Source: Polytrichum commune
Lineage: Eukaryota; Streptophyta; Polytrichopsida; Polytrichales; Polytrichaceae
DNA length: 64,000 nt
NCBI GenBank assembly: GCA_950295325.1
Contig: OX485803.1
Location: 14,942,001 to 15,006,000 of the forward strand
Direction of reading: 5' to 3'
The notes under the pieces were generated by a model. The model was not told the DNA's origin, made no database searches, and saw only the letters and a program-made list of their open reading frames with translations. A program made the translations under genes and the position numbers. Of the stretch, positions 27,420 to 64,000 are shown piece after piece. How positions within the stretch are numbered: the stretch's first letter is position 1; each line of letters begins with the position of its first letter.

Positions 27420-28527
27420 ATATAGTGGTAGGGGTGGCCCACGACGCCCCTCCCGCGACGTGCGAGGGACATGACCCTACTCACCTTACATTTACTTCTC
27501 CGCTTTCCACTGTCCCAAGCCGCGCGTCCCGACTTCCTTCCCCCTTGCCAAGCCCCGCGAGGAAAAGCAACTAGTCTGGCAAGCAAAGCCAGGCAGATGC
27601 GCGCCGCTTCACTCCAGCTCCTTATTTGTGGCCACTTACATCCTCCCTCACTTCTCGCTGCTCCTCGTGATGTGCTAGCTCGCACACTGCCGTGTTCCTC
27701 TCCGACTCAGCTGCTGCTTTGCGTACTGCAACTCTCCAAGTGCCTCCCCACCTCCTTCAACTTAACTAGATCTTGCGCGCCCTCTGCGGAGCTCCAGGCA
27801 GCCTCCTACTTGAAGCCTTCGTGGAGTCGTCGCGGTGCAGGAGGTGTTGAATTTGATCCTCGGACCGAGAAGAGTGATTTTGGGTGGGAGGAGGAGGAGG
27901 AGGAGGAGTCTGTGTACTACTACAAGCAGAGAGAGGTTTACAGTTTTTGAGGATTAAGTTACGTGGGCGTTTAAGTGGTTCTAGTAGATCCTCGTACTAG
28001 CAAGGTGCTGATGATGGATTTTCTTCAGTGGTCGTGATGAACCTCGGAGTGGTCTGCCAGGGGACGTGATCTTTGAAGAAAGGATTTTTGAGGTAGAGCT
28101 CAAAGGAGGCGGTTTTGCAGAATTAGGTGGGTAGAGAATTTTTATTTTATTTTTTGGTCCGGTGTTGTAGACGACTTACTACTACTCGAGGTGTGGTTGG
28201 ATACATCGAATTCAGATGGTTGAAACAAAGAATTGGATGACGAGCGGAACGACGCGGAGAAGCTCCTCCTCCTGCACATGGCTTGTGCGGAGGTCATCTT
28301 GTTAATCCTCGAGACTCAAGCTCGGTATTTACACCTTCTTGCAGAAAGAATCGGTAGCAGTGAATTCACCTCCGAGATTTAGAGCCCGGTGTTTCTGAAC
28401 ACCGAGCTATCGGTTTGTGGTTTCGGTACCAGGTTCAACCGCGCACTGCAACTATCGGAATTTGTTTCCTAGTCCAACTAAGTAATCTTTTCCATCGGAG
28501 AGAAATCATCCCCATCAATCATCAATC
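27420..28527 (+). promoter_or_regulatory. GC-rich promoter/5' leader of the GT47 gene
   Basis: GC and CpG content rise sharply at about 27420-27830 compared with the A+T-rich surroundings. A (GGA)n run lies at 27889-27907. Several open frames cross this stretch on both strands (plus 27471-27950, minus 27407-27685) without recognisable domains, as expected of GC-rich DNA. If the transcript starts here, the leader carries several upstream ATGs, including a frame at 28415-28609 that overlaps the main start. No TATA box is evident. The boundary between promoter and leader cannot be set from sequence alone. Confidence 0.45.
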
Positions 28528-31500
28528 ATGTCCACGTTACGCGAGGTGGCGGTGCCCCGGATCACGCCATTCTTGCAAATCCTGTATGGGCTATTCAACT
28601 TACTTCTGATCGGGGGGTTGGTGTACAGCTTCAAAAACACGGGAGGGTTTCACCACAAATTATCCTCTTCTCCGAAGAATCTAACTTCAGGGTTGATGAA
28701 TCAACATGATGCGTGCCCACCCGTTCCAGCAGCAAAGAGAGTTGAGAAGGTGGTAGAAGGCGCAGTCCTGGACCCGTGGCACGCATCTTCCAAATCGTTG
28801 CACTCGCCGTTCCGGTTCCCACGATGCTCCATGGATGTCTGCTTCAACTTCTCACGGTGCGACAACATGGACGAGCTGCTGGTATACCACTACGACGAAA
28901 TCAACCCTCCCAAATGGTTCTTCCAAGCTCTCAAAGCGAGCCCGTACTCCACCACCGACCCGGAGAAGGCGTGCATCTTCCTGGTCACGGTGGACAGGCG
29001 GATGGAGGAGCCTCGAATCCCTGACTTGAACACCTTGCCGCACTGGAACCATGGGTTGAACCATGTGCTAATCTCGTTCGTGGACAACTGGTCCAAGTGG
29101 AAGAACCCCATGGCCTCCACGCTGGAGAAAGCGGCCGTCATGACCAGCATCACGCACCAGACCACCTACCGCCCTGCGTTTGATATTAGTGTCCCCCTCC
29201 CTGCGTTGAAGTACTACGAGGATCTGCAGGAGCTCAAAGCGTTCCAACGAAAGTATTTTCTTACGTTTAAGGGGACCAGGTATTTGTCGGAGTTCGGTGG
29301 GGGTGGTTTCCGGAGCCACCCTTCCATGCGAGGCATGCACAATGGGAAGGATGTGATTGTGGTTACCACTTGTCGACAGGTACCTCACTCATCCTCTTGG
29401 CCTTTTTCATTGAATCTCTGCATACCTGTTTTTGCTACTCTGGCCATCTGTGCCTCCATAATTGTAATTCTATTTTTCCCTGGTCGCAACAACAACAAAA
29501 AAAACATTTCCAATCCAGTGGGTAGCTCAATCAGGATAGGGGTTCCTCAGTGCGAGATGAGGTGGGGGATTCTGGATTGGGAAGCATGTCCTCACTCATC
29601 CTCTCTGCTGCTTTCATTTCTTCAGATACCTGTTTTCGCTACTCCTAGTACCTTTGCCTCCAGTTGCAATTTAATTGGCCCCTGGTAGCAATACCTCCTC
29701 CTTCGACTGGGTAGCTCGATCAAAATAGGGGTTCTCCGTGAGAGATGAGGTGGGGCATCTTGGGTTGGGAAGAACGTCCGTAGTCATTGGTTTCTTTCAT
29801 ATCTTTGCCTCCAATTGCAGTTTAATTTGTCTCAAGTTACGAAATTAAATTCAATCCAGTGGGGTAGCTCAGTCAGGATAGGGGGTTCCCGTGTGAGATT
29901 AGATGAGGGTCCTTGGATTGCGAAGGATTTCATTATAGCTACAAGCTGTCGGTAGGTGCCGAAGAATGGCCTCAGACATCCTCTGCCTTCATTTCTGTGT
30001 CTGTATACTACTCTATCTGTTCCTCCGATTGCAATTTAATTTGTCCCAGGTTGCAAAATCTAATCCAATTCTACAGGTTATCCTGTGCTTGATTTTCTCT
30101 TGTTTGTCGATTTCAATTTTCCCTGGTTTGGGAAATTGGATTCTATGGGTAGCTCAGTCTGTAGAATAGGGGGATAAGTCCCAAATTGAGGGGAGTTCTG
30201 GAAATGGGAAGGGTGTAAGATGTTTCTTACAAGGTGTGGGCAGCTTCCCAAGCATGTCCTCACCCTCTAGTTTCCTCTTATCTTTTTAGCTGGTTTGTCA
30301 ATTCCAATTCGACCTGCCCCTGGTCTGCGAATTTGATTCATTAGTTAGCTTAATTAGTAGGATTGGGGCAACCGGATGAGACTCAATGTGACATTAGAAG
30401 GGTTTACTTGAATGGGCGCACTCGAAGTGGAGAACAAAAGCAATCTCCTGGATGGTTAGTTTTTTGAGGGTGTTTACTCGAAGCAGAAAAAATAACAAGA
30501 AATCTCTGAGTTGCTCGGAGGGTAGTAGGTTAGTCAACGTGACACTTAAAGTCTGCCGCGTACGACAGTAATGACGACTACTGAAAATGCTTGAGAAAAC
30601 AGAAGATGGCTCTCATCCTTTGCTACTTTTCGCCCGAGTCTTCCTGTGCCTTGAATTTCACTTCCCTGGTTGTAAAAATTATTTTCCATGGGTAGCTTAT
30701 ATAGGATATGGGTGTCTCTAAATGCGAGGTTTGGAAAAATTGGGGGCAGTAGAAGCAGAGACCTAAACAATCTTCTATTGCTCTTCGGTAGGTAAGCCAT
30801 TGTGACACTGAGATGCTTGAGAAATGGAAGGTGGTTGCGTGTACACAGATATTAGAGAGAAAATTAAATCATTTGAGAGAGTATTTTTGGTCAGCACAAG
30901 TGTTGGTGCAATCTTAGGTCTACAATCTCAGCCATGTGGCCAGTGAACAAGTACTACTTTTTCTTTTTGCCATCACGTGGGTTTCTCATTGCCAAATTGT
31001 TGTTTTTGATAGGGGGAAGGGGGTCTAGTTTGAGTGATCTGTAGGGACCCAAGGTAGGGAATTGTTGGTGATTCTCTTACGATGCTCTTTTTTGAGTGTT
31101 CTCTGAATGTGGTCTTCTTAAACCAGGTTTCAAACAATGAATATTTGAAGGAGCACCCGGAATTGGTACCCGAGTGCGAGGCGAACCATAAGGTGTACAA
31201 GGAATACAATTTTGGCGACTTGATGAATTCCACGTTCGGCCTTGCCCCCGCGGGGAGGGGCCCCTCCTCCTTCCGTCTGTTGGAAATCTTATCAGCGGGT
31301 TCCATACCTGTGCTTGTGTCCGACAACTTTGTCCTACCGTTCGACATGCTCATCCAATGGGAGCGGTGCGTGTTGATGTTCCCGACAACCGAGATGCACC
31401 GGATCCTGCCCACGCTTCGGGCCCTCAAGCACGAGGAGGTTGAATTTCGGAGGGAGTATTGTCTCTTCATCTACCGCGAGTTTCTGGAAACCGACCAAAA

Positions 31501-31621
31501 GCTCGTTGCAACCGTCATGCTCGCGTTGAAAACCAGGTTCTACGGCATGCTCCCCCGGCTCGCACAGAAAATCCCGGTCCCCACCAAGTTCTTGCGGGGC
31601 ACGACGCAACAACCCGCGTGA
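28528..31621 (+). CDS. Exostosin-like GT47 glycosyltransferase, two exons
   Basis: Exon 1 is 28528-29379 and exon 2 is 31127-31621. The 1747-bp intron is GT-AG, phase 0 (donor CAG|GTACCT, acceptor ACCAG|GTT), giving 448 aa. Residues about 15-33 are hydrophobic, so a type II Golgi membrane protein is likely. From about residue 90 the sequence follows the exostosin (GT47) domain: a Cys-rich CSMDVCFNFSRC, SPYSTTDPEKACIFLV, a RPAFDISVPLP block, FKGTRYLSE, HNGKDVIVVTTC, and in exon 2 NSTFGLAPAGRGPSSFRLLE and PVLVSDNFVLPF. This order and wording is closer to animal-type EXT1 than to plant xyloglucan galactosyltransferases. It is much shorter than EXT1 (~750 aa) because the second (GT64) domain is absent. 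The likely role is sugar transfer to a cell-wall or glycoprotein glycan; donor and acceptor are unknown. Family assignment is firm, exact activity is not. Confidence 0.88.
29380..31126 (+). repeat. Intron of the GT47 gene with a degenerate tandem repeat
   Basis: A unit of roughly 150-340 bp recurs about six times. Each starts near a GGGTAGCT(C/T) motif (29520, 29708, 29862, 30146, 30350, 30688). This is followed by a cagtcaggataggggttcc-like, gagatgaggtgggg-like and gattgggaag-like segment, then a pyrimidine-rich ttcatttctt/ctgttttcgctact part. The array therefore expanded inside the intron from one ancestral unit. No ORF continues across it. Confidence 0.65.
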
Positions 31622-52427: not shown

Positions 52428-52754
52428 TATGTAGTGTGCTTGTAGCACATAAGTTCCATCTTTCGTGTAGGCATGCTAGCCTTCACCATATAGGGATCAA
52501 ACTCTACAACCTAAGTAGATAGATAGATAGAAACTCTGGTCCCTATTTAAAGGGGCCGGCGTGAATGAAGTGTCTGTTCGTATTGTCAAATGACCCGATG
52601 CCCACCAGACAAGGGGAAATTAGGACAATACTACTCTCCCCTTCCGGGGATGGACACTATAGTAACCGGAAAACAAAATAAAGGTAACCCTCCTTGGTTG
52701 TTTAGCACATAGTTGCGTCTATGTTATAGTATAAGTTGTAATTTGTTGTGTTTG

Positions 52755-52890
52755 GTGGTCGCCAAGTCATGTTTCCTTGGTTGGTTGAGGGAGGATGTTT
52801 AACTACATGTAGACGGTCCGGGTTCGGCTCCCGTTGGGTCCGTTTGAGCGTTTAGTGTGTTATACGTGACTTGGTGCTGCTAGTGATTTA
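52755..52890 (+). mobile_element. Possible tRNA-derived SINE
   Basis: An A-box-like TGGTTGAGGGAGG (52782-52794) lies ~40 bp ahead of a B-box-like GGTTCGGCTCC (52821-52831), matching the RNA polymerase III internal promoter spacing. The surrounding sequence does not fold as a full tRNA. It sits next to the 3' end of the LINE, which starts at about 52890-53019. A poly(A) tail and target duplication were not seen. Confidence 0.35.
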
Positions 52891-53018
52891 AAGGCAGGAA
52901 AATTGTACCAACCAGCTGGCTCCTACCCATCTTCATGAGCTTATTGGTGTTTATATTGTTCAATAAATAAAGGACTACCTTATGATCATTTTCTTGTTCT
53001 TGTTTGTTTATTTGTTGA

Positions 53019-55870
53019 TTATTCTGTTGGTATTGTTTGGTTATTTTCAATACGTCTTTTATGTAGAAGGATTGAACTGGCATATTGTATGGCAATGGTG
53101 TTTATTTCTTTGAATGTATAGTTTATAGAATTTTGAGGTAGTTTAAATGTTTGTTCAATTTGTTTCATTGACGGGATATGCGTGGTTCCTCTAGCTCCAG
53201 CCGAGATGACTATAAGTGGGTCTACTTTCCAGCCTTGTTGGGTGATGTCATTAATTAGTGGTTGATATTTTTGAATTTTATTGTCAGTTGTATCTTGTGG
53301 GAATCTGTCATTTGTGTATGTGAATTCAATAAATTGTACCGTGAGGTTGTATGTTGGGTGTGGTGGTGGCGTGCTTTGGTGTGGGAGTTCTTTGATACAC
53401 AGGAGGTCGGGTTTAAATTGTGCGTTGCAATGGCATCTTTGTTGTTCACATGTACATGGTAGGAGCCATGTGAGGACTGTATTATCTTGTGGGTTGTTGT
53501 CGAATGTCCCTGCATTCATAAGGATGTAGCATATTGATTTTTGCAATGTTAGGATTAGTTTTCCTAGTTTTCATACTGATTTGTTATGTCTTTTGGTTCT
53601 TAGGGCATGTACATGGTGTTGATTGCATTTTAAGAGTACATGTAGCCATGTATCTGCATAAGAGGAGTTACAGATTGGGCATGTGGTAGATGAGAATCTT
53701 TCTATGCCAAAAAATAGTTGTTTTCTGGCATTGCCCATGTATTGTCCAGTTCGGAATTTTAGTATGCATGTTTTTTGTGAGTTTGTTATTACAGGGTTAG
53801 ACCATAAATTATTCGATATTTCATTATCAATGTCAGGGTTCATTGTCCATTTGCTAATGTTGGGGAATTGTTCTGACATGGTTTTTAGGTTGTTAACTCG
53901 GTCGTGTTTAGTTATGTATGTTTCGAGGCATCTAACAGGGCCTTTGTCAGGTCGCTTGTTTGGTCCAGGCCATGTGTCTTTTTGGAAGTAGTATGGTGTG
54001 ATGTGTGCAAATTCGTATGACTTGGCAGCGAATCTGTATCTCTTTTTGGCGCCATGTTTTGCTAATTGGTCTGCTTGCTCATTCCCATCAATGTTTGTGT
54101 GTGCTTTTACCTTATATATCGTAGTAGGTTGCGTTCGGCTTTTTAGCATTTCTATCATAGATGTTAATATAGTTTTGTAAGTAGTTGTGTTGATGTCTTG
54201 TATAATATTCTTTTAGTAATTTGATGTTGTGTTCGATTACTGGGGGTTGGTTTAGTGGGAAGAGTTCGCATTGTGGCATTCATTTGTTATATGTGGTGTT
54301 GTTTTGGAGTGACCATTGGCATAGATATGTGTTGATTTTTTTTGTTATTTTATACTTATATTTGGTTTCGTTTGATTTGTGGTTTAGTATAATGTGGATG
54401 TGGAATCTGAGTGGGTTATTTTTTATGTTGGGGGGTAAATTGGGTTGTTGTGGTAGTGGTGGGTGTAAGGGGTTTTCTTGCATTCTGGGTGTTAGTTCTC
54501 TATTTCCTGATATATATATCTTGCTTTGAGTGTGCGGGCTTGTAGGTGCGTGTTACACAGATTTGGGCAGTTTTGGTTGCAATTTTGTTGGCAAAAAAGT
54601 TGTTACGCTATACGTAGTACAGTTTTTTCAAGTTTTGTTGGTGTTTTATAATATATTTGAAAGTCTTTTGGTGACATTAGATTTGTGCCATTGGGGAGAG
54701 AGATGTAATTTACTTTTTGTATATTGTGAGTTAGGAGTTTATGAAGTAGTTTTAGGGATAGCTCGGGGTTTAGTTGTGGTAGTTCGGTTGTGGCTTGTGT
54801 TCTCCATTCATGTTCTAGTTCTATTGTGTGGAGTTGGAAGTTTGCTTCTATACTTTTGAGGTGAGCTCCTCCTTCTTTTTTCATTAGAAATAATATTCGT
54901 GTTGTAGGTGATCTTATACAGTCTTGGTATTTAATTTTTTGTATGTCCTTTGCCCCACCGTGTTTGGCTAGTATGTGTTGTATGAGCCCTTTGTATATTA
55001 TTCCTAATCTTCCGGGGTCGTTTAGTGCGTTTCTATGTTGTTCACTAATACATCTTAGGTAGGCATTTTTTAATGAGAATGCTTCTAGTCCAAATAGGTC
55101 ATGTGATAGTTGGGTTATTATATTTGTTGTGCATTTGGGTAGACCACATATTATTTTTCAGATTCCAATTATTTTTTTGTCTAATTTTTTGATGGTTGGT
55201 AATGAGTATGGGATTGCGTAGAAGCTATAGGCTATACCAGCTCTGATGACAGTATCCACCATGCTTATTTTTTGTTTGATTGTAGCTGGGCATTTTGTTA
55301 GTTCTTTGTATTGGTTTATTATTTTGGCCAACGTGATGTGTGTTTGGAGCTTCCATTTTAGTGAAGGTACTAGTTGTATGCCTAAATAGACGTAGGGTTC
55401 GTTTTGGTGTAGGATAGGTAGTGGTTGGTTTATGTAGTTGATGTTTTGGGCTTGGATTTTGACTTTGAATGTTTCTGGTTTTGTTTTGATTTATTTGGGC
55501 ATCATGTGATGGCATATTTTGGTACTCCCAAATCCATTCCGGCCCAATCACAGTATTTGTGTAATTTGCTTAGTTGTGTTTGTATTGATTGAAGATTGCT
55601 TGTGATAGCAGCAGATCATCTGCATATGCTGCCGAGCTGATTGTTAGTTTGGACGTACCAAATGTGTATCCATTCTTTCCTCTCTGTAGCCATCTTAGTA
55701 GAGGTTCTAGGAATATTAAGAAGAGGTATGGGTTGAGTGTGTCGCCTTGTATTGTGCCTCTTTGTATTGGTATAGGTTTTGTCTTTCCGAAGTGTTCACC
55801 GGTGAATATGGTATTGGAGTTTGAATAAATGTTTCCTATTAGGGTCACCGCATCTTCTGGGTATCCTAAG
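53019..55870 (-). pseudogene. LINE A ORF2, 3' part: RT core, RNase H, C-terminus
   Basis: It resumes at LGYPEDAVTLIGNIY, then RT motif B (QRGTIQGDTLNPYLFLIFLE) and motif C AYADD (about 55635-55600) with both catalytic Asp. A thumb segment YLGIQLVPSLKWK (about 55390) follows. RNase H is shown by KVKAHTNIDGNEQADQLAKH (about 54120-54055), holding the last catalytic residues. Then comes CPICNSSYADTWLHVLLKCNQHHVH (about 53680-53600), a Cys/His cluster as found downstream of RNase H in related LINEs. The last ~170 residues (53546-53019) start with a Cys-rich part and contain IPSMKQIEQTFKLPQN. Several frameshifts and stops (for example 55220-55550 and 54160-54600). The C-terminal domain is shared with LINE fragment B. 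Confidence 0.82.
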
Positions 55871-57861
55871 TGTCGCAACCCTTGCTAGGTCCCTTAACAA
55901 TCTTGCCAATTTTCGTTTCTAGCAAAGGTTACATGCATCGCGGCCTCCTTTGTCTCATGCGGTTCGCCCTTTCCAAACCTCACCTTGGTGGGCTTGACCG
56001 CTCTACCAATCGGCAAGCCCGAACTCCCTTATGAGTTTTGGGCTCAAGAAGAAGTGGTAGCCTCTTTATCAATACATGAGACATTTCTCCCATTCATTTG
56101 AGCCTCAAGGTACAAAAGACTTGGCCTCGGCTTAAGGCTACTAGCCTTGGCCACAATGCCATAGTCTTACATTCGGTTCGCGGCACAAGTATTATTTGGC
56201 GGGGAACCTATCTCCCCTCAACGTCCATTGTTGTAACGCACCGCCAAATTGCTTAATGGGGTCATCGGCCTTGATGCTCATGGCAATTTTGATGATCCCC
56301 GCCACAACCTCAATAAACTTTGGAAATTTGAACTTGGTATTCACCACCCGCTTTTGAAACCCACCTAAAACGATGCATTTCTTAGAAAGCTCGTTCATCA
56401 AAGATGTACTATTCATTTGGGTGCGAAATGGGCGCATATACGCCTTAAGAGGCCCAGACGCCTCATTTCCACCAAATTCATTCCAACATCAATACCTTCC
56501 AAGCATTTCGAATTGGAATTTCAATCCAACATTAATGCCCTCCAAGGTTTTGGGTGCATTCGGTATTCTAGGCCCCAAATGTTTTTTTGAGGTGTGCGGG
56601 AGCCCTTTCAAAGGACTCCACCATTTTCCTTACTAAATCCACCATCATGCCCACCATTGTCATTAGAACTAATGGTATGGCCAAATTCCATTTACACATG
56701 ATCTTTGTTCCAATTTGAGCCTTACAACCTTTTGGAAAACCCGGGCTCACCATAATAACCCTCAGGTTTGATAGCCATGTCTCCCTCAAAGTGCTAGCTC
56801 AAAATATTGGAACCCTGCTCTGATACCACGTGTCGCAACCCTTGCTAGGTCCCTTAATAATCTTGTCAATTTTCGTTTCTAGCAAAGGTTACGAGCGCTA
56901 ACCCTTCGCATTCTGCCATGCTAATGGATAGCTCCTCTTACCCCGGACCAATAGTTCATAGGAGGGAACCATCCCTCCTACTTTGCTTTCGGGACTCACC
57001 CCTTAATCGGTAACCCATTTCCCCAATCTGGACTTCCATCCATGAAAGTCCAATCCTATGTTGATCATCGCGTTGCCGGAGCAACACTACAACAACCCGA
57101 ACCATACTAGGCAACTATGGCCTCACAATAGGCCAAAGCCCATGGAGGCCTTGCCGTTCGGCCTCGGGTGGGTGAGGCCACACCACCTCACCCATATAAG
57201 CCTCTAGGACTTCACGCGGGGCCCCTACCCCACCGTCAACCAACCTCTTGTCTCTCTACCAAGAGTTGGGGCAAGTGAGGAGTCCATCGGCATCTACGTG
57301 AAGCGTAGATGAAGATGGAGTGGTTGGTTGTTATGATCAGACATCATACAAGGAAGTTATGATGGTCTGAAGCTGCTGGGGGGTTCTAGGCCCAGCAGCT
57401 AAAGGAAAATGTCCACTTGGCCCCAACTCTTGGTAGAGAGACAAGAGGTTGGTTGACGGTGGGGTAGGGGCCCCGCGTGAAGTCCTAGAGGCTTATATGG
57501 GTGAGGTGGTGTGGCCTCACCCACCCGAGGCCGAACGGCAAGGCCTCCATGGGCTTTGGCCTATTGTGAGGCCATAATTGCCTAGTATGGTTCGGGTTGT
57601 TGTAGTATTGCTCCGGCAACGCGATGATCAACATAGGATTGGACTTCCATGGATGGAAGTCCACATTGGGGAAATGGGTTACCGATTAAGGGGTGAGTCC
57701 CGAAAGCAAAGTAGGAGGGATGGTTCCCTCCTATGAACTATTGGTCCGGGGTAAGAGGAGCTATCCATTAGCATGGCGGAATGCGAAGGGTTAGCGCTCG
57801 TAACCTTTGCTAGAAACGAAAATTGACAAGATTATTAAGGGACCTAGCAAGGGTTGCGACA
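55871..57861 (-). mobile_element. LTR-retrotransposon derivative inserted in LINE A
   Basis: The 1991-bp insertion has TG...CA ends (TGTCGCAACCC/GGGTTGCGACA) and the duplication CTAAG on both sides (55866-55870 and 57862-57866). Read on the minus strand: 5' LTR 57861-56831 (1031 bp), then after 2 bp the primer binding site TGGTATCAGAGC (56828-56817) complementary to initiator tRNA-Met, internal sequence 56816-55933 with a decayed gag-like leader (ATG at about 56782, MAIKPEGYYGEPGFSKRL), and only the last 62 bp of the 3' LTR (55932-55871). Protease, integrase and RT are absent: it is a non-autonomous, internally deleted element. With one CTAAG counted, the LINE frame runs through the site unbroken, so the LINE RT was open when it was hit. 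Confidence 0.9.
56831..57861 (-). repeat. Palindromic LTR with 442-bp arms
   Basis: 56831-57272 is the reverse complement of 57419-57861, apart from scattered mismatches, around a ~146-bp centre. The solo LTR at 35873-36845 has only one such arm. It matches 57861-57273 (to ctcacttgcccc) but then continues with different sequence. So the outer half of this LTR was replaced by an inverted copy of the half next to the PBS. Confidence 0.88.
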
Positions 57862-60652
57862 CTAAGTCTTTTGTTATTGCTAACAGCCTTGCGTGATCGA
57901 GGGAACCAAAGGCATTTTTGAAGTCAATATATAATAGGTATATATCTTGGTTTATAAATCTTGCATCATCTAGTGCTGCTATGAGGAGTTGGAGTTGTAT
58001 GGTCGTGTTTTTTTCTGATTTGAATCATTTTTGGCTGTCGTGTAGGATTTGGTATTTTTCTCCATATATTGATAATATGAATGTTATGGTACTTGTAAAG
58101 AATTTGTATATTGTGTTTGCGAGTGCAATTGGTCTATGGTTTGATAATTTTGAGGGGTCTCCTTTTTATATAAGAGTATAGTTAAGCTTATTTTCCATGA
58201 TATTGGAATTTATTTTTGTTTGTAACAGTGGGAGAAGAATAGGAAGAGTAGTTTGTGGAAGCTTTCGGACATAGTCTTTTTAATTATATTGGGAATTTTA
58301 TCGGGACCTGGTGTTTTGTTGTTTGCTAGGTTTTTAAGGCAAATGTCGTATGTTTCTCTATCAAAGTATTCATGTAGTGAAATTTGCGGGTTTCCTATTT
58401 TGTTGATAACAAAATCATCAAGATCATGCCAGAGGTATTGTCTTACACCGCATGTACAGTATGATGTGTGTTCTGGTTGGTGATAGCATGTTGGTACTGT
58501 GGGTTTGTTGCTTATGAATTGTTGTATGTGGATTTCGTTGGCTATGTCTATAGGGTTTGTAAGTATGTTGTTGTGTTCATCTGTAATGCAATCGAGTGGG
58601 GGTGTTTTTCTTTATTTTTGAAGACTCTTTTGTTAATTTTCTTTGGACTTTTTTCATATAATTGTTTGTATTTGGATATGGTTTTTTTGATGCATTCTTG
58701 GGTGTATTTTGTGGTAATTTTTCGGGCATGTATATTTGCAGTTTTGGCTATTTGGGCTAGTGTTTTTATCCATTCTTGTTGGTTAGGTTATTGGTTGGGG
58801 GGGGGGGTGGAATAACCACTTGAGTATGATTACTTAGTTCTTCTATGATTGGGTGTGTCGACCAGTTAGGTGACTTTTTTATTTGGTAGATTGTTTTCCT
58901 AATTAAGTGGTAGGTGGAGAGATGGTTTTTCCATTTTGTTTGTAGTTTTCTTGGTAGGAAGCCTCTTTGTTGTGATGTTCGGTTTGTGAGGTCTGGGAGG
59001 GGTGGTGCGCTACACGTGTCCTGAATTTTTTCAGAAATTTGTTGAATTAGGTGGTCTAACTTAGTGCAAGATGTTTGTCATTGTTCATTTGTTATTTGGT
59101 TGTTATTTAATGTGTTTGTGAGTTCGTTTATTTGGAGTGCATTTTCTTCAAAAAAAATTGTTTCGAATATTTCGATATTTGCATATGGGATGGGGTTTAG
59201 TAGCCTTGGTGGTTTTTCTGTTGTTGGTGGCATACAACGGGTTAGTAGTGTATTTGGTGGTATATGTAGTGTTACTGAGGAGTGGTCTGAGTTTAGGTTA
59301 TGGTCATTATTTGTGGTTGATGAGTATAGAGCATTATTGGTTGTTTTAATGTAATATCCATCTATTAAGCTAGTTTGGTTGTAGTCTTGACCCCCTTGTC
59401 TAGAGTATGAGCTATCCATGGGGATATATGTGAGTTGGAGGTTATTCGTAAATGTATGTCATTCTATATCTTCAACTTGTGGTGGAGTTGTTATGTATTT
59501 ATTTTGTCGTCCAATTAGGGCTATGTCTCTATTAAAGTCTCTGCATAGGATGAATGTGTGGTTTGGGTGGTTAGTATTTTGTTGTGTTATGTTTTGTTGT
59601 ATTATTGGTATAAGTCGTATGTCCTCTTCGTATGATGACATGTAAATGTGTATTATTAACCATGGTTATAGGGGTTGGTTGTTTATTTTTATTATTTGTA
59701 AATATGGTGATATTGCAGCTGGAGTGGGGATTTTGGTGATGTTACCAGGATATGCGTATGATTTGTTTATGAGTGTAAGGAATCCACCTCTTGCAGGTGT
59801 ATATGGCATTATTTGTTGTATACATCTTGTTAATGTATGTGTATTGTTGAATATTAATTTGTATTGTGAGAATAAATTTTGTATGTACTTTGTGAATTTT
59901 GTTGCGGTTAGTTTAGTTTTTTTGTATAGTGATGATTGCGGGGTTATTTGGTGTATATGATATAAGTTGGTGGAGGTTTGGTAGGGCTGTGTTTAGTGAC
60001 GAAGCGTTCCATGTAATTAAGTGTGTGCTGTGATTTGTTGTTTGGTTTTCTTGGGGGCGCAACGTGGGTATGTCGGGTAATGATGGGGGTGAGAATATTC
60101 ATTTAGCGGGTCTTTGCATTTTAAAGCTTCTCTAAGTAATTCTTCTGGTAAAAAGGAAATTTGTCTGTTATTAGCTGTATGTTTAAGGGTGCATTACTTT
60201 GTTTGATGAAGTTATATAGTTCTTTGTGGATGGTTTTGGGTGGGTTGATAATGTCTTGGTTTGTTTGTAAGAATTGTGTGTATGGGTGTGTGGTTGTGAT
60301 GTGTTTTTCGGGTGGGTTTTGGAATGAGGTCATGCGTTCTAAAATTGTTGTTGTCCAATCATGTTATGGGGTTTGTATTAATAAATAGTTGCATGTTTCT
60401 ATTGCGAGGTGGTGGACGATGTTGGTTTCTGTAGATGTATCTTGATAGGTACGGGTAGTTTATGATTGTTTCGTGGTGTTTTGGGTGTGTTAAGTTTATG
60501 ATAGGGGAGAATTGTTTTGCTAGATGTTGGTATTCATGTTGTAATTTGATTGTGCATTCTATAAAATACCTTTTACATCTATTTTTGTGTGTGGTTGGAT
60601 GTGTTTGTAGGATGTTGGGCATGGGTCCCGGGTTGGTTTCAATGTCCCCACT
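57862..60652 (-). pseudogene. LINE A ORF2, 5' part: endonuclease and RT N-terminus
   Basis: After the 2A motif come ~200 residues with no assigned domain. The APE-type endonuclease follows: TWNASSLN (about 60020-59990, the motif I Asn), CRDFNRDI (about 59545-59522; the usual GDFN has lost its Gly), the QDYNQTSLIDGYYI region (about 59380) and NSDHSSV (about 59285-59265, the catalytic SDH). The frame is broken several times. Reverse transcriptase then starts; YIDFKNAFGSLDHARLLAIT (about 57930-57870) is RT motif A with its first catalytic Asp. The frame is cut by the LTR-element insertion right after this. Confidence 0.8.
60623..60649 (-). other. 2A ribosome-skipping motif at the start of ORF2
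   Basis: On the minus strand the nine codons read GDIETNPGP, an exact match to the 2A consensus D(V/I)ExNPGP, followed by MPNILQ and the endonuclease region. Upstream in the same frame lies a Leu-rich hydrophobic stretch, LLIIQAFFLHLLIL, then a TGA (60653-60655) and Ser, then the motif. In 2A peptides translation skips the last Gly-Pro bond, releasing the upstream peptide. The TGA directly before the motif shows this copy can no longer be translated through it. Confidence 0.85.
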
Positions 60653-60679
60653 TCATAGTATTAGTAAGTGTAAGAAAAA

Positions 60680-61420
60680 TGCTTGGATTATGAGCAGGTT
60701 TTTTCGTTCTTTGTGTGTTGTGTGTTGTTATTTTTTATTTTTCTTTATTTTAGTGTCTAGATTTGTTATGTGGTTTGGGTGTTCAGTGGTTCTTTTTTGT
60801 GGTTTTTTGGGATGCGTAGTTTTGTATTTGTTTCTTTTTTCTTTTTCTTTTTTATTTTGTTATTTTGATTTTGGGCGAGGCCGGTAGGCCGAGCCCGTCT
60901 TAGGTGGTTTTCGTTGATTCTGTTTTGTGTTTTTGTGTTTTTGTGTTTTGGGGGATTGTTTGAGAGGATTGGGGTGATGTTGTGGGTTGTTGTTTTTGTA
61001 GTGGTATGGTGTGCGTTTGTTTGTTTTCTTATTGATTTTTGTGTTTGATATGGTTTTGGTTTTTTATTTGTATTTTGAAGGTGTGCTTTGGTTATGTTTG
61101 TTTGTTTCTTGTGTTTGTTCGTAGTGTTTATGTTTATTTTTGGTAAGGTTTTACGTATATTATTTTGGTTTTGTTTTTTGTTTTATTTGGTCATTGGTTT
61201 TGAGAGATGTTTTGTTTTTATTGTTGTGGTTATTTTTTATAATTTTGGTTGTTTGTGTTTGTTTGTGGTTTTCTTGGTTTTTGTTGTTTTGGTTTTGGCT
61301 ATCAATCTTTTCTTGTTTATTATTTTGCTTTGTTCCTATGAGTTTTGGTTTGAAGCATAGTTTTAGGTGGGTTTTGAGGTTTGGGTGGGGTTTGGGTATT
61401 TTTGGCTTAGTTTTATTTAT
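60680..61420 (-). other. A+C-rich linker between ORF1 and ORF2
   Basis: The minus strand is almost free of G and T over long runs (the plus strand reads ttttggttttgt-like). Read as protein it would be K/N/T/Q/P-rich. Stops occur in all frames. It may be a low-complexity tail of ORF1 or an intergenic region. The strand skew is the strongest in the window. Confidence 0.55.
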
Positions 61421-62752
61421 TTATTGGTTTTTTATGAGTGTGTGTTTGGTTAATGTGCTTTGGATGTCCAACATTTGCTTCTTCAATTTGTCGTTGATGT
61501 CATCTACATAGTTGTGGGCCTCTTTGACTATGTCATCCTTCAAGACCTTCATCTCTTCGTGTAGTTCAAGCTTGAGTTTCTTATTACCTTCTTCAATGGC
61601 CTCGTTCATGATGGTAAAAACTTCGCTTTTGGTGGCATTCTTCTCACCTTGGTTTTGGTTTTGGATTGCTTCAATGGTGTTCACCAAGCAAGTGTTAGTA
61701 TCTTTAAATCCAAACTTAACCAACAAGTCTTTGGAAGGCTTGTCAATACCCTCAAGACTTCTACGGTGTGGAGTGATTTCCACATGATAAACAACAATTT
61801 ATTCGTCTTTTCCTACAAACTTTTTGTATACAAAGGGGTTGAGGCATTCAACATTTGCACTACCATTGTGTCTAATCCCATCTTGCTTGTGGAACTAAAT
61901 GGAGACAACATTCTTGGTTCCAATTATCTTCCAAATTTCAAGAGATGTGTCATCTATGCTCATCAAGATGGGAAGGTTATAGAAGGTGAGAGTTAGAGCT
62001 TCTTTCCTTTGTTTTTGCTCCAAGGTAAGAGAAGGCCCTTCCTTCACTTGTCCTTCCAAAATTTCATGGTGTGTTGCAACTTGAAGTTCTTGAATTTTCT
62101 TGGTTTGTGAGGGAGTTGGTGCAACAATGTAAGCACGGTTGTTGGAAGTGCCCTTTTGCACCTCTACAATCTCAAATTCATAACCTCTTTTAAAACTATT
62201 CTCTAAAACATCCTTGAAGAGCATGTGTGAAGAGACACCAATCAAAGTTTCGCTAGTGATTTTCATTGAAAGGTTGTTCTTCATAGCTATGGAGTGGTAA
62301 GTCTTACCTACCTTTCCAAGAGTACCTTGGGTTGATTTCGGGTCCAATTGTAGAATGAATGGTCTAAGTCCTTTCAACAAGGCCACCCCATCAATTTTAG
62401 GGTGGAGAAGGTGGATTTTGGCAATTCCCGCCCAAATTCCTTTCTCCCCACCTCTCTTAACACTCATGCACATGATAGATATGGGCTCAATAAGATTAGT
62501 GCCAAGTGGTATTTGCATAAAATCAAGTATTGTTCTTACTAGTTCTTTCACATGGTTGTGTAGGAGAGGGGTGTTAGGTAACTGAAATTCAATAGCAACA
62601 TGGAAGTCCAAAGCGAGACATGTATTGGGATCAATAGGGATATCATATGGAATTTGTATTAAATTTAGGTGTTGTCCAAGGACACCATCCTCTCTCTTAC
62701 CTGGGTAATAGATTTGGGGTATCCTTCGGAAGGATATTGCGATCCCCTCCAT
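61421..62752 (-). pseudogene. LINE A ORF1
   Basis: One continuous reading frame of ~443 codons is broken only by TAG at 61895-61897 and TAA at 61799-61801; the frame before, between and after the stops is the same. The frame remains open further upstream to a TAG near 62820, so the true start is uncertain. The first ~285 residues include a region ending LTFYNLPILMSIDDTSLEIW, reminiscent of the RNA-binding (RRM-like) domain of LINE ORF1 proteins. The last ~100 residues (EAIEEGNKKLKLELHEEMKV and onward) form a charged, heptad-like coiled coil. No zinc knuckle is seen. The likely role was RNA binding and chaperoning of the LINE transcript. Confidence 0.72.
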
Positions 62753-64000
62753 TTCTTCCGCTTCCTTCCTTGGTACTCCCCTAAGTACCGTATCTTCAAT
62801 GGAATCACCATCGAAAAGCTATTCCATAGCCAATTTCTTTATGTTAGTAAAACAATACCAAATTTTTTTACGGAACCCTCGTTCCGGGACAATAGAATTT
62901 ACTTGTGGGCTTGTGGAATTTGGTGTAGAAATTTGTTCGGTGTTGTCTTATCTTGGGTTCTCTTGGTACCTATTTCTTTCGTAGCTTGATTCTCCTTTGC
63001 CTTCTCCGCTGTTAAGAAAAATATGCATTATCCGGTAAGCACGGGTTTTTTTTTTTTTTTTTTTTTTATGGTAGTGTTTAAAAATTTATAGTACCTTTCC
63101 CTTCTCCTAAACCCTTGTTGTAAATCCCTCTCAATATTGTCCTACTAAACTTCAGAATAATATAACTCTCACATAACTCATTGTCTTCAAGTGAAACTTG
63201 GTCCGCTTATTAAGTACCTTACTAAAAGTATCCACACCAAATTTCAGCACAAATGGAGCTCATACTAAAAATTTATGCGTGTTTTTCTAACTCTAACTTC
63301 CTAGCATGAATGTTGTGGTATAACATCCGGTCACTAAAACTTTAATAACTTCGAACCATTAAGTCCAATCAATCTCAAATTTTGACACATAATAGATAGA
63401 TAAGATTAGAAGGCAGTGTCAAATTTTTGTAGCCATAGCTATAATATTCAGAAAAATTCATATTTTCAAACATTATTATCCTAGTTGTCTTTGTTCCTAG
63501 ACACCCTTCAGTTCAACTTTGTATAACTTTTTCTCCCCAAAGACAGAAGCTTCGAAATTTTTATCTCAACTTCTATATCTCATAAAAAATATCCTCTCAA
63601 ATTTTCATAACAATCCAACACTCTAACCATTCATAATTTATAAATATTTCATTCCTAAGTTCTGCTCACTTAATAATGAATGAAACAATACAAATAGTGC
63701 ACTTAGTGCAACCTAGTCATTCTAAAATTTTCACCCCGTCATTCTCTTATATAGATGGGCTTCTTAAACACTTATTTTTTTTAAATGCTCAAAGTTCTTT
63801 CAACTCTATACAAGTACTAATTCCAAATGCTAATGTTCCTCCCTTTAACACACTTCTAACACCCCTTAAATACTCTTCTACCTTGCCTACTTCGGCCAAT
63901 AGAAAAAAATTAGGGTAAGGATTTCTAGAACCCCAAAAGGCTAACTAATAGGAGACATTTTGGGTAAAAAATTTCTAGAACCCTTATCTTGCTTGAAATA
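62753..64000. other. LINE 5' flank and A+T-rich DNA
   Basis: The sequence from 62753 to about 63000 may be LINE ORF1/5' UTR. A T-run of about 20 lies at 63048-63067. Near the window end, gggtaaggatttctagaacc (63914-63933) is repeated as gggtaaaaaatttctagaac (63961-63981). No gene is recognised. Confidence 0.45.

Follow-up and report, generated by a model that had tools for sequence, protein, structure and literature searches.

A probable 2A (StopGo) peptide conserved ahead of the endonuclease in LINE retrotransposons of the land plant Polytrichum commune

In the animal long interspersed nuclear elements (LINEs) that carry a 2A (StopGo) peptide, described in a 2013 study, the 2A core lies in frame with a protein that joins an apurinic/apyrimidinic (APE) endonuclease to a reverse transcriptase (RT). 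The L1Tc/ingi elements of trypanosomes, on which Heras and colleagues are said to have reported in 2006, reportedly carry a 2A at the N-terminus. SART1-type LINEs couple their two open reading frames (ORFs), ORF1 and ORF2, by a stop-start arrangement, and plant LINEs of the L1 clade encode an APE endonuclease, an RT and an RNase H, with zf-RVT and an L1-type ORF1. In the current study, we characterized a LINE in a 64,000-nucleotide stretch of the Polytrichum commune genome (hereafter the window: assembly GCA_950295325.1, contig OX485803.1, positions 14,942,001 to 15,006,000), together with related copies elsewhere in that genome. Nine minus-strand codons of this element, at window 60649-60623, spell GDIETNPGP.

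As in the animal elements, the 2A lies in frame with an APE endonuclease-RT protein, and an L-rich upstream context is a feature of the animal elements too. Unlike them, the elements described here occur in a non-flowering land plant, have a long, near-neutral leader after ORF1 and carry tandem in-frame 2As; they also hold a PCIF1-like domain and an RNase H in ORF2, a distinction drawn from descriptions rather than from sequence comparison. In L1Tc/ingi elements, which are also LINEs, a 2A likewise precedes the endonuclease in frame, but the 2A here follows hundreds of leader codons. Several 2A peptides within one reading frame are described for picornaviruses of the Paavivirinae (PMC11512398); those are RNA viruses, whereas here a retrotransposon appears, by inspection, to have its 2A and ORF2 N-terminal module duplicated (copy L098) or mixed between lineages (L099 and L119). 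The 2A-LINE strategy is already known; the differences lie in the host, a plant, in the length and near-neutrality of the leader, in the tandem arrangement of 2As and in an altered Glu position of the motif. A limited search of the open literature on 2A and bryophyte LINEs, by titles and abstract starts, found no earlier description of plant LINEs that carry a 2A.

The motif in the window copy and its relatives

The minus strand of window 60700-60623 reads NLLIIQAFFLHLLIL*SGDIETNPGP. The original prediction, made from the letters of the window, had named a full 2A consensus, a Leu-rich stretch ahead of it and a dead copy with a TGA before the motif, and each of these is borne out. The TGA lies two codons ahead of the G, the motif sits in an open stretch of 97 codons beyond which the frame is broken, six in-frame stops fall within the last 256 codons of the leader, and frameshifts occur downstream of the motif. 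The window copy itself is a dead element. That the frame leads from the motif into the endonuclease, as was also proposed, holds for a close relative, L004, whose frame continues for 399 codons past the motif and reaches the endonuclease, but not for the window copy, where the frame breaks.

The genome searched comprises 407.8 Mb in 64 contigs, of which C1 to C7 measure 42-78 Mb each. The pattern GD(I/V/M)ETNPGP has 63 matches genome-wide, GD(I/V/M)ExNPGP has 261, and widening the Glu codon to any VAN codon (E, H, Q, K, D or N) gives 427; each pattern, when reversed, has none. Relatives were collected with the 399 residues that follow the motif in L004, which is 88.5% identical to the window copy over window 59310-61200. 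The motif was left out of this query to avoid circularity, although L004 itself bears it. Among ~1243 candidates, the 104 nearest to this one motif-bearing copy were scored, and all 104 were followed up. The motif is exact, adjacent and in frame in 77 of them, variant or frameshifted in 25 and lacking in two; the core octapeptide D(V/I)ExNPGP is accordingly exact in those 77 and in the window copy. On C1 and C2, 40 of 46 copies have the exact form and one is frameshifted, while the remaining five comprise four with Lys at the Glu position (L032, L092, L093, L094) and L095, which is interrupted and has its motif ~1 kb upstream. On C3 to C7, 37 of 58 copies are exact. Another 20 are altered: L049 has a stop at the Glu position, L073 seems to be frameshifted, and the others differ by one or two residues. 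The one copy without the motif, L057, has a match that begins at query residue 118. Neither of the refuting outcomes named with the original prediction was thus observed: the motif is conserved in other copies, and the frame from motif to endonuclease is open in intact ones, with L027 and L028 forming a single open frame that includes leader, motif and all of ORF2.

Selection was gauged on 60 copies fetched in one format, namely all 54 C3-C7 copies new to the set and six from C1-C2, most of the latter picked for want of an exact motif. Four (L057, L073, L095, L096) were dropped as not alignable in frame at this position, leaving 56. The pooled ratio of non-synonymous to synonymous differences (pN/pS) is 0.13 across the motif's nine codons and 0.26 and 0.40 in the two ORF2 stretches that follow; in the leader it is 0.61 for the last 12 codons and 0.86 for codons -32 to -13. 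These values come from related, non-independent pairs and are descriptive rather than a test on independent data. The sole strongly variable residue of the motif is the consensus "x" (P in 21, T in 20, S in 10 and L in 5 of the 56). The Glu position is the second most variable (E in 48, K in 7, a stop in one).

The six residues before the Asp at consensus position 12 are LLLLSG, LILLSG, ELLKCG, ALLQCG and similar, and by inspection they resemble the L-rich class of upstream motifs ending in (A/S/C)G, of which one of two is reported as active (PMC12846837). According to the same paper, His at the Glu position is highly active, Gln is quoted as partially active, StopGo works in artificial constructs in plants, and there is no evidence for its natural use by plant viruses; no test of Lys at the Glu position was found there (PMC12846837). 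Taken together, the conserved in-frame motif supports the proposal that this plant LINE lineage uses, or used, a 2A to express ORF2. We consider it likely, at about 0.8, that the LINEs of a large clade in this land plant bear a true 2A/StopGo peptide maintained by selection.

The leader, the second lineage and tandem 2As

The original prediction had placed the motif at the N-terminus of its ORF behind a short leader, and this part did not hold, since a long leader in the same frame, with few or no stops, precedes the motif in the relatives. Between the ORF1 stop and the first 2A there are 546 codons in L027, 548 in L028, 267 in each of L029 and L037, and 236 in L099, all without an in-frame stop, as against 14-39 stops in each of the other two frames of these leaders. 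The leader parts read in L034 and L035 are likewise free of stops over 871 and 875 codons, ~33 of the latter overlapping ORF1. Across the 56 copies, the 200 leader codons upstream of the motif hold 147 stops in the 2A frame vs. 696 and 718 in the other frames (564 expected per frame from composition); 28 copies are free of stops in the 2A frame and none is in either other frame. Among 27 fully open copies, pN/pS is 0.80 in the leader vs. 0.19 in the 2A region and 0.18 in ORF2 (68 pairs passing limits on alignable length and pS). These figures suggest that the leader is kept readable while its protein sequence is barely constrained.

The start of ORF2 was scored in eight copies. As in SART1-type elements, the ORF2 frame of L028, L032 and L099 has an AUG 5 nt ahead of the ORF1 stop (AUGnnUAG). 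Unlike SART1, the overlapping AUG is missing in four others, where a 2A-bearing leader follows ORF1 and the first AUG in the ORF2 frame comes 107 nt (L027), 125 nt (L029), 20 nt (L036) or 125 nt (L037) after the stop. No open frame follows ORF1 in L100.

A second lineage is represented by L098, which is 42-43% identical to the first over ~1,580 aligned columns. A search with the protein that follows its 2A gave 112 scored places, ending with lineage-1 copies at 38-39% identity. Twenty lineage-2 copies were hand-picked among the matches that begin near the query start, omitting four C1-C2 copies already known to bear the motif. An in-frame 2A-like motif occurs in 19 of the 20, the other (L110) appearing frameshifted, and NPGP is intact in 17 of the 19. 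In the leaders of these 19 copies there are 33 stops in frame vs. 214 and 176 in the other frames. The residue after NPGP is Met in one of the 19; hence, a start codon at that point cannot replace the 2A route in this lineage.

Some elements carry more than one 2A. L098 has two, 267 codons apart within one open frame, and its 2A and ORF2 N-terminal module appear by inspection to be duplicated. L099 carries three 2A-like motifs, the first two of them separated by a stop, and in L099 and L119 the 2A and N-terminal module of one lineage is, again by inspection, joined to that of the other. In 12 cases neighboring 2As share a strand and are no more than 3 kb apart, and in 11 of these they are in frame with each other (binomial p 5e-5), a count drawn from the 100 places listed of the 427 widened-pattern matches.

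The lineage-1 leaders also contain a GC-rich element, CTCGGCCTACCGGCCTCG, which folds as a hairpin and is present in 51 of 56 copies when up to four mismatches are allowed. Its core is 92% identical between copies vs. 50-53% for the 40-nt flanks, with the caveat that the search itself is biased toward similar cores; the exact core has 292 copies in the genome, and the reversed control none. Relative to the 2A, the hairpin lies in all three frames (46, 16 and 4 of 66). Since it occurs in every frame and its core is better conserved than its flanks, the element is conserved as nucleic acid rather than as protein. A role as a promoter, packaging or re-initiation signal is possible. In its 24-base form, with five mismatches allowed, it is absent from the lineage-2 loci L014, L017, L020, L022, L098 and L100, and also from L099. 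Several hairpin copies stand in tandem in the leaders of L034, L035 and L001, and in L001 a decayed 2A (KDTETNLGP) lies in frame upstream of the intact one; leader modules may thus originate when the 5' end of ORF2 is duplicated.

A possible route to ORF2 protein and its alternatives

We infer that the 2A would release a clean endonuclease-RT protein from a disposable leader crossed by ribosomes, and the main ground for this is that the leader stays readable yet is near neutral. After finishing ORF1, ribosomes would re-initiate at its stop codon or close to it and read the leader as far as the 2A, where the Gly-Pro bond would not be made; the leader would fall off and translation continue, yielding a protein of endonuclease, RT and RNase H with Pro as its first residue. 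The leader would have to stay open because ribosomes cross it, and its sequence would hardly matter as protein because it is thrown away; it may carry RNA signals instead, such as the lineage-1 hairpin. Where an element bears two or more 2As, several pieces would be released. A fuller version of this proposal, to which we give even odds, is a disposable leader of partly repeated modules with a frame-independent RNA hairpin, excised by one or more 2As; because each 2A would make the piece upstream of it irrelevant, modules could be duplicated or swapped between lineages (L099, L119) without harm to the enzyme, and the Glu position would have drifted to H, Q or K.

Several observations weigh against these readings, beside the non-independence of the compared pairs. 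Only 104 of the ~1243 candidates, those nearest to one motif-bearing copy, were scored. At least one in-frame stop occurs in the 200 leader codons of 28 of the 56 copies, the leaders of L032 and L036 hold one stop in 548 codons and three in 402, and a TAA lies 13 codons ahead of the first 2A in L098; we read such stops as decay. The start of ORF2 differs between subfamilies, with an overlapping AUG in some and a first AUG 20-125 nt after the stop in others. The Glu position carries K in seven of the 56 lineage-1 copies and is E in 7, H in 6, Q in 4 and K in 2 of the 19 lineage-2 copies. The Lys form GDIKPNPGP occurs in a subfamily of copies near-identical by inspection (L028, L032, L033, L078, L081, L093), of which L028 has a fully open ORF2, and this subfamily offers a test case for a non-canonical 2A. 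Finally, Met follows NPGP in all 56 lineage-1 copies, so that a second, 2A-independent start is possible there.

Among the alternatives, skipping could be partial, giving leader-fused and free forms of ORF2 protein with different fates. Such dual targeting through a 2A is described for sea-urchin proteins (PMC4981915), and it would suit leaders that end in hydrophobic stretches and the many lineage-2 copies in which H, Q or K replaces Glu. However, a leader as poorly constrained as this one, with its N-terminus hundreds of residues away, is unlike an N-terminal signal, and we consider this reading unlikely. The peptide could also be kept as a structural or targeting segment of a leader-ORF2 fusion rather than for skipping. 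The leader and ORF2 do form one open frame in L027, L028 and L029, and the Lys-at-Glu subfamily has several near-identical copies; against this, the conservation follows the viral 2A consensus down to its free position, the upstream context is like a class that has been tested, and the attached leader is near neutral, unlike a useful fusion domain, which makes the reading quite improbable.

The invariant Met of lineage 1 raises the further alternative that ORF2 starts at its own AUG right after the motif (NPGP-M), the motif being part of an upstream peptide or a relic. This would explain neither why the nine codons ahead of that AUG are under purifying selection nor why so many leaders lack stops, and only one of the 19 lineage-2 copies has a Met at that point; we regard it as very improbable. 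A chance match in one dead element, which the broken window copy with its TGA might have suggested, is excluded for practical purposes by the hundreds of pattern matches against reversed controls of zero and by conservation in relatives found with a motif-free query.

Element architecture, neighboring sequence and implications

The order of parts was taken from L027, L028 and L029 and from the 3' parts L030 and L031: ORF1, leader, 2A, an extension of ~210 residues, APE endonuclease, RT, a PCIF1_WW match, RNase H, a CCHC-like motif and a C-terminal extension. In L027 the endonuclease and RT occur together in one protein (Exo_endo_phos 27.3 bits, cut-off 24.5; Exo_endo_phos_2 29.9, cut-off 27.4; RVT_1 61.1, cut-off 29.6). 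The L028 stretch that matches the L027 endonuclease has no Pfam family at E up to 0.5, and its match to exonuclease III chains is weak (E 0.03). Like plant LINEs of the L1 clade, the element has an APE endonuclease, an RT and an RNase H; unlike them, it has a PCIF1_WW match and a 2A, and Pfam scans of pieces of L027, L028, L030 and L031 found no match to zf-RVT or DUF4283. Neither zf-RVT nor an L1-type ORF1, both features of that clade, was thus seen in these scans. The best sequence relatives of the L030 RT part in the PDB are R2 proteins. Predicted structures were of limited use: the model of the ~210-residue extension was unusable (mean predicted local distance difference test score, pLDDT, 41), and that of a relative's ORF1, of low mean pLDDT (57.8), shows RRM-like and coiled-coil parts with a long terminal helix. 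RRM proteins prevail among its best Foldseek matches, alongside aspartokinase regulatory domains, all at low TM-scores.

The PCIF1_WW match lies between RT and RNase H and scores 42.6 bits in L030 (residues 635-730 of the ORF piece) and 48.3 in L031 (L031:1502-2101), with a cut-off of 31.1. PCIF1 is the methyltransferase that makes cap N6,2'-O-dimethyladenosine (m6Am), and NPPF is its catalytic motif. In the PCIF1-like part, NPPF aligns with HPPN or HPHN, and with this replacement methyl transfer looks lost; the part is perhaps an inactive RNA-cap or nucleic-acid binding module within the LINE. Judged by titles and abstract starts, the literature search yielded no paper recognized as describing a LINE with a PCIF1 domain.

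The window element (Table 1) spans from its TATC-repeat tail at 52516 to ORF1 remnants reaching at least 62818. TATC repeats also stand at the 3' ends of L030 and L031. By blastn, ~2.0 kb inside the RT of the window copy (55872-57861) is absent from relatives, and a gap of ~1.35 kb removes what in L031 is the PCIF1-like domain together with the first half of RNase H. Within the extra ~2.0 kb, a short direct repeat that translates as KGPSKGCDT lies near 56.85 and 55.9 kb. An Rfam scan of window 52500-63500 gave no match up to E 1, ruling out a known Rfam RNA at the element.

Table 1. Parts of the LINE copy in the window (positions of the window).
Feature	Position	Strand	Basis
2A (StopGo) core GDIETNPGP	60623..60649	-	direct reading; genome-wide conservation
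Leu-rich 2A upstream context NLLIIQAFFLHLLIL*S, TGA-interrupted	60650..60700	-	LLLLSG/LILRSG-type hexapeptides in relatives
Degraded leader, ORF1 to 2A (approximate limits)	60650..61420	-	open or nearly open in relatives
GC-rich hairpin element GGGCTCGGCCTACCGGCCTCGCCC	60873..60896	-	sequence match to lineage-1 leader element
ORF1 remnants, open pieces 61898-62818 and 61424-61798	61424..62818	-	blastn to L101 ORF1 over 61448-62737
ORF2 N-terminal extension (~210 aa) and APE-type endonuclease, frame broken	59078..60622	-	Pfam naming in relative L027
WNASSLN in endonuclease region	59991-60011	-	translation
RT, first part, with some preceding sequence	57908..58611	-	blastn to L027 over window 57862-60874
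YIDFKNAF of RT first part	57908-57931	-	translation
RT, second part (GDTLNPY, YADDL)	55158..55884	-	RVT_1 E 1.3e-6, 28.7 bits, just below curated cut-off 29.6
RNase H C-terminal part, CCHC-like motif, C-terminal extension	53019..54176	-	RNase_H E 1.8e-5, 25.4 bits, just below cut-off 25.8
3' untranslated region ending in TATC repeat tail (52516-52529)	52516..53018	-	similar 3' ends in L030 and L031

Elsewhere in the window, two open stretches at 28486-31621 on the plus strand have Pfam matches to the exostosin GT47 domain and are probably exons of one glycosyltransferase gene. Contig C8 has an open rbcL, a tRNA-Arg(CCG) nearby and a full-length chlB, and on these grounds we take it to be plastid DNA. 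Flowering plants are not known to have chlB or this tRNA in their plastids, which marks the host as a non-flowering land plant. Stop-bearing fragments matching the ChlB profile, with RuBisCO large subunit nearby, occur at ~70.04-70.11 Mb of C2, a contig of nuclear size, and are perhaps an insertion of plastid DNA. A search of viral contigs for relatives of the element gave two stretches that matched a pattern, neither of which was confirmed.

This plant genome has 427 matches to the extended motif, and in the sampled copies the motif sits in mobile elements, apparently under selection at the peptide level. Ribosome skipping in plants can now be tested on native plant sequences, as can the activity of E-to-H, Q or K variants in their own context. 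A question raised by these elements is why they make ribosomes cross hundreds of near-neutral leader codons. Such elements could also supply home-grown 2A sequences for plant biotechnology. If the fuller disposable-leader reading is true, the clade would amount to a natural collection of functional 2A variants in which H, Q or K replaces Glu.

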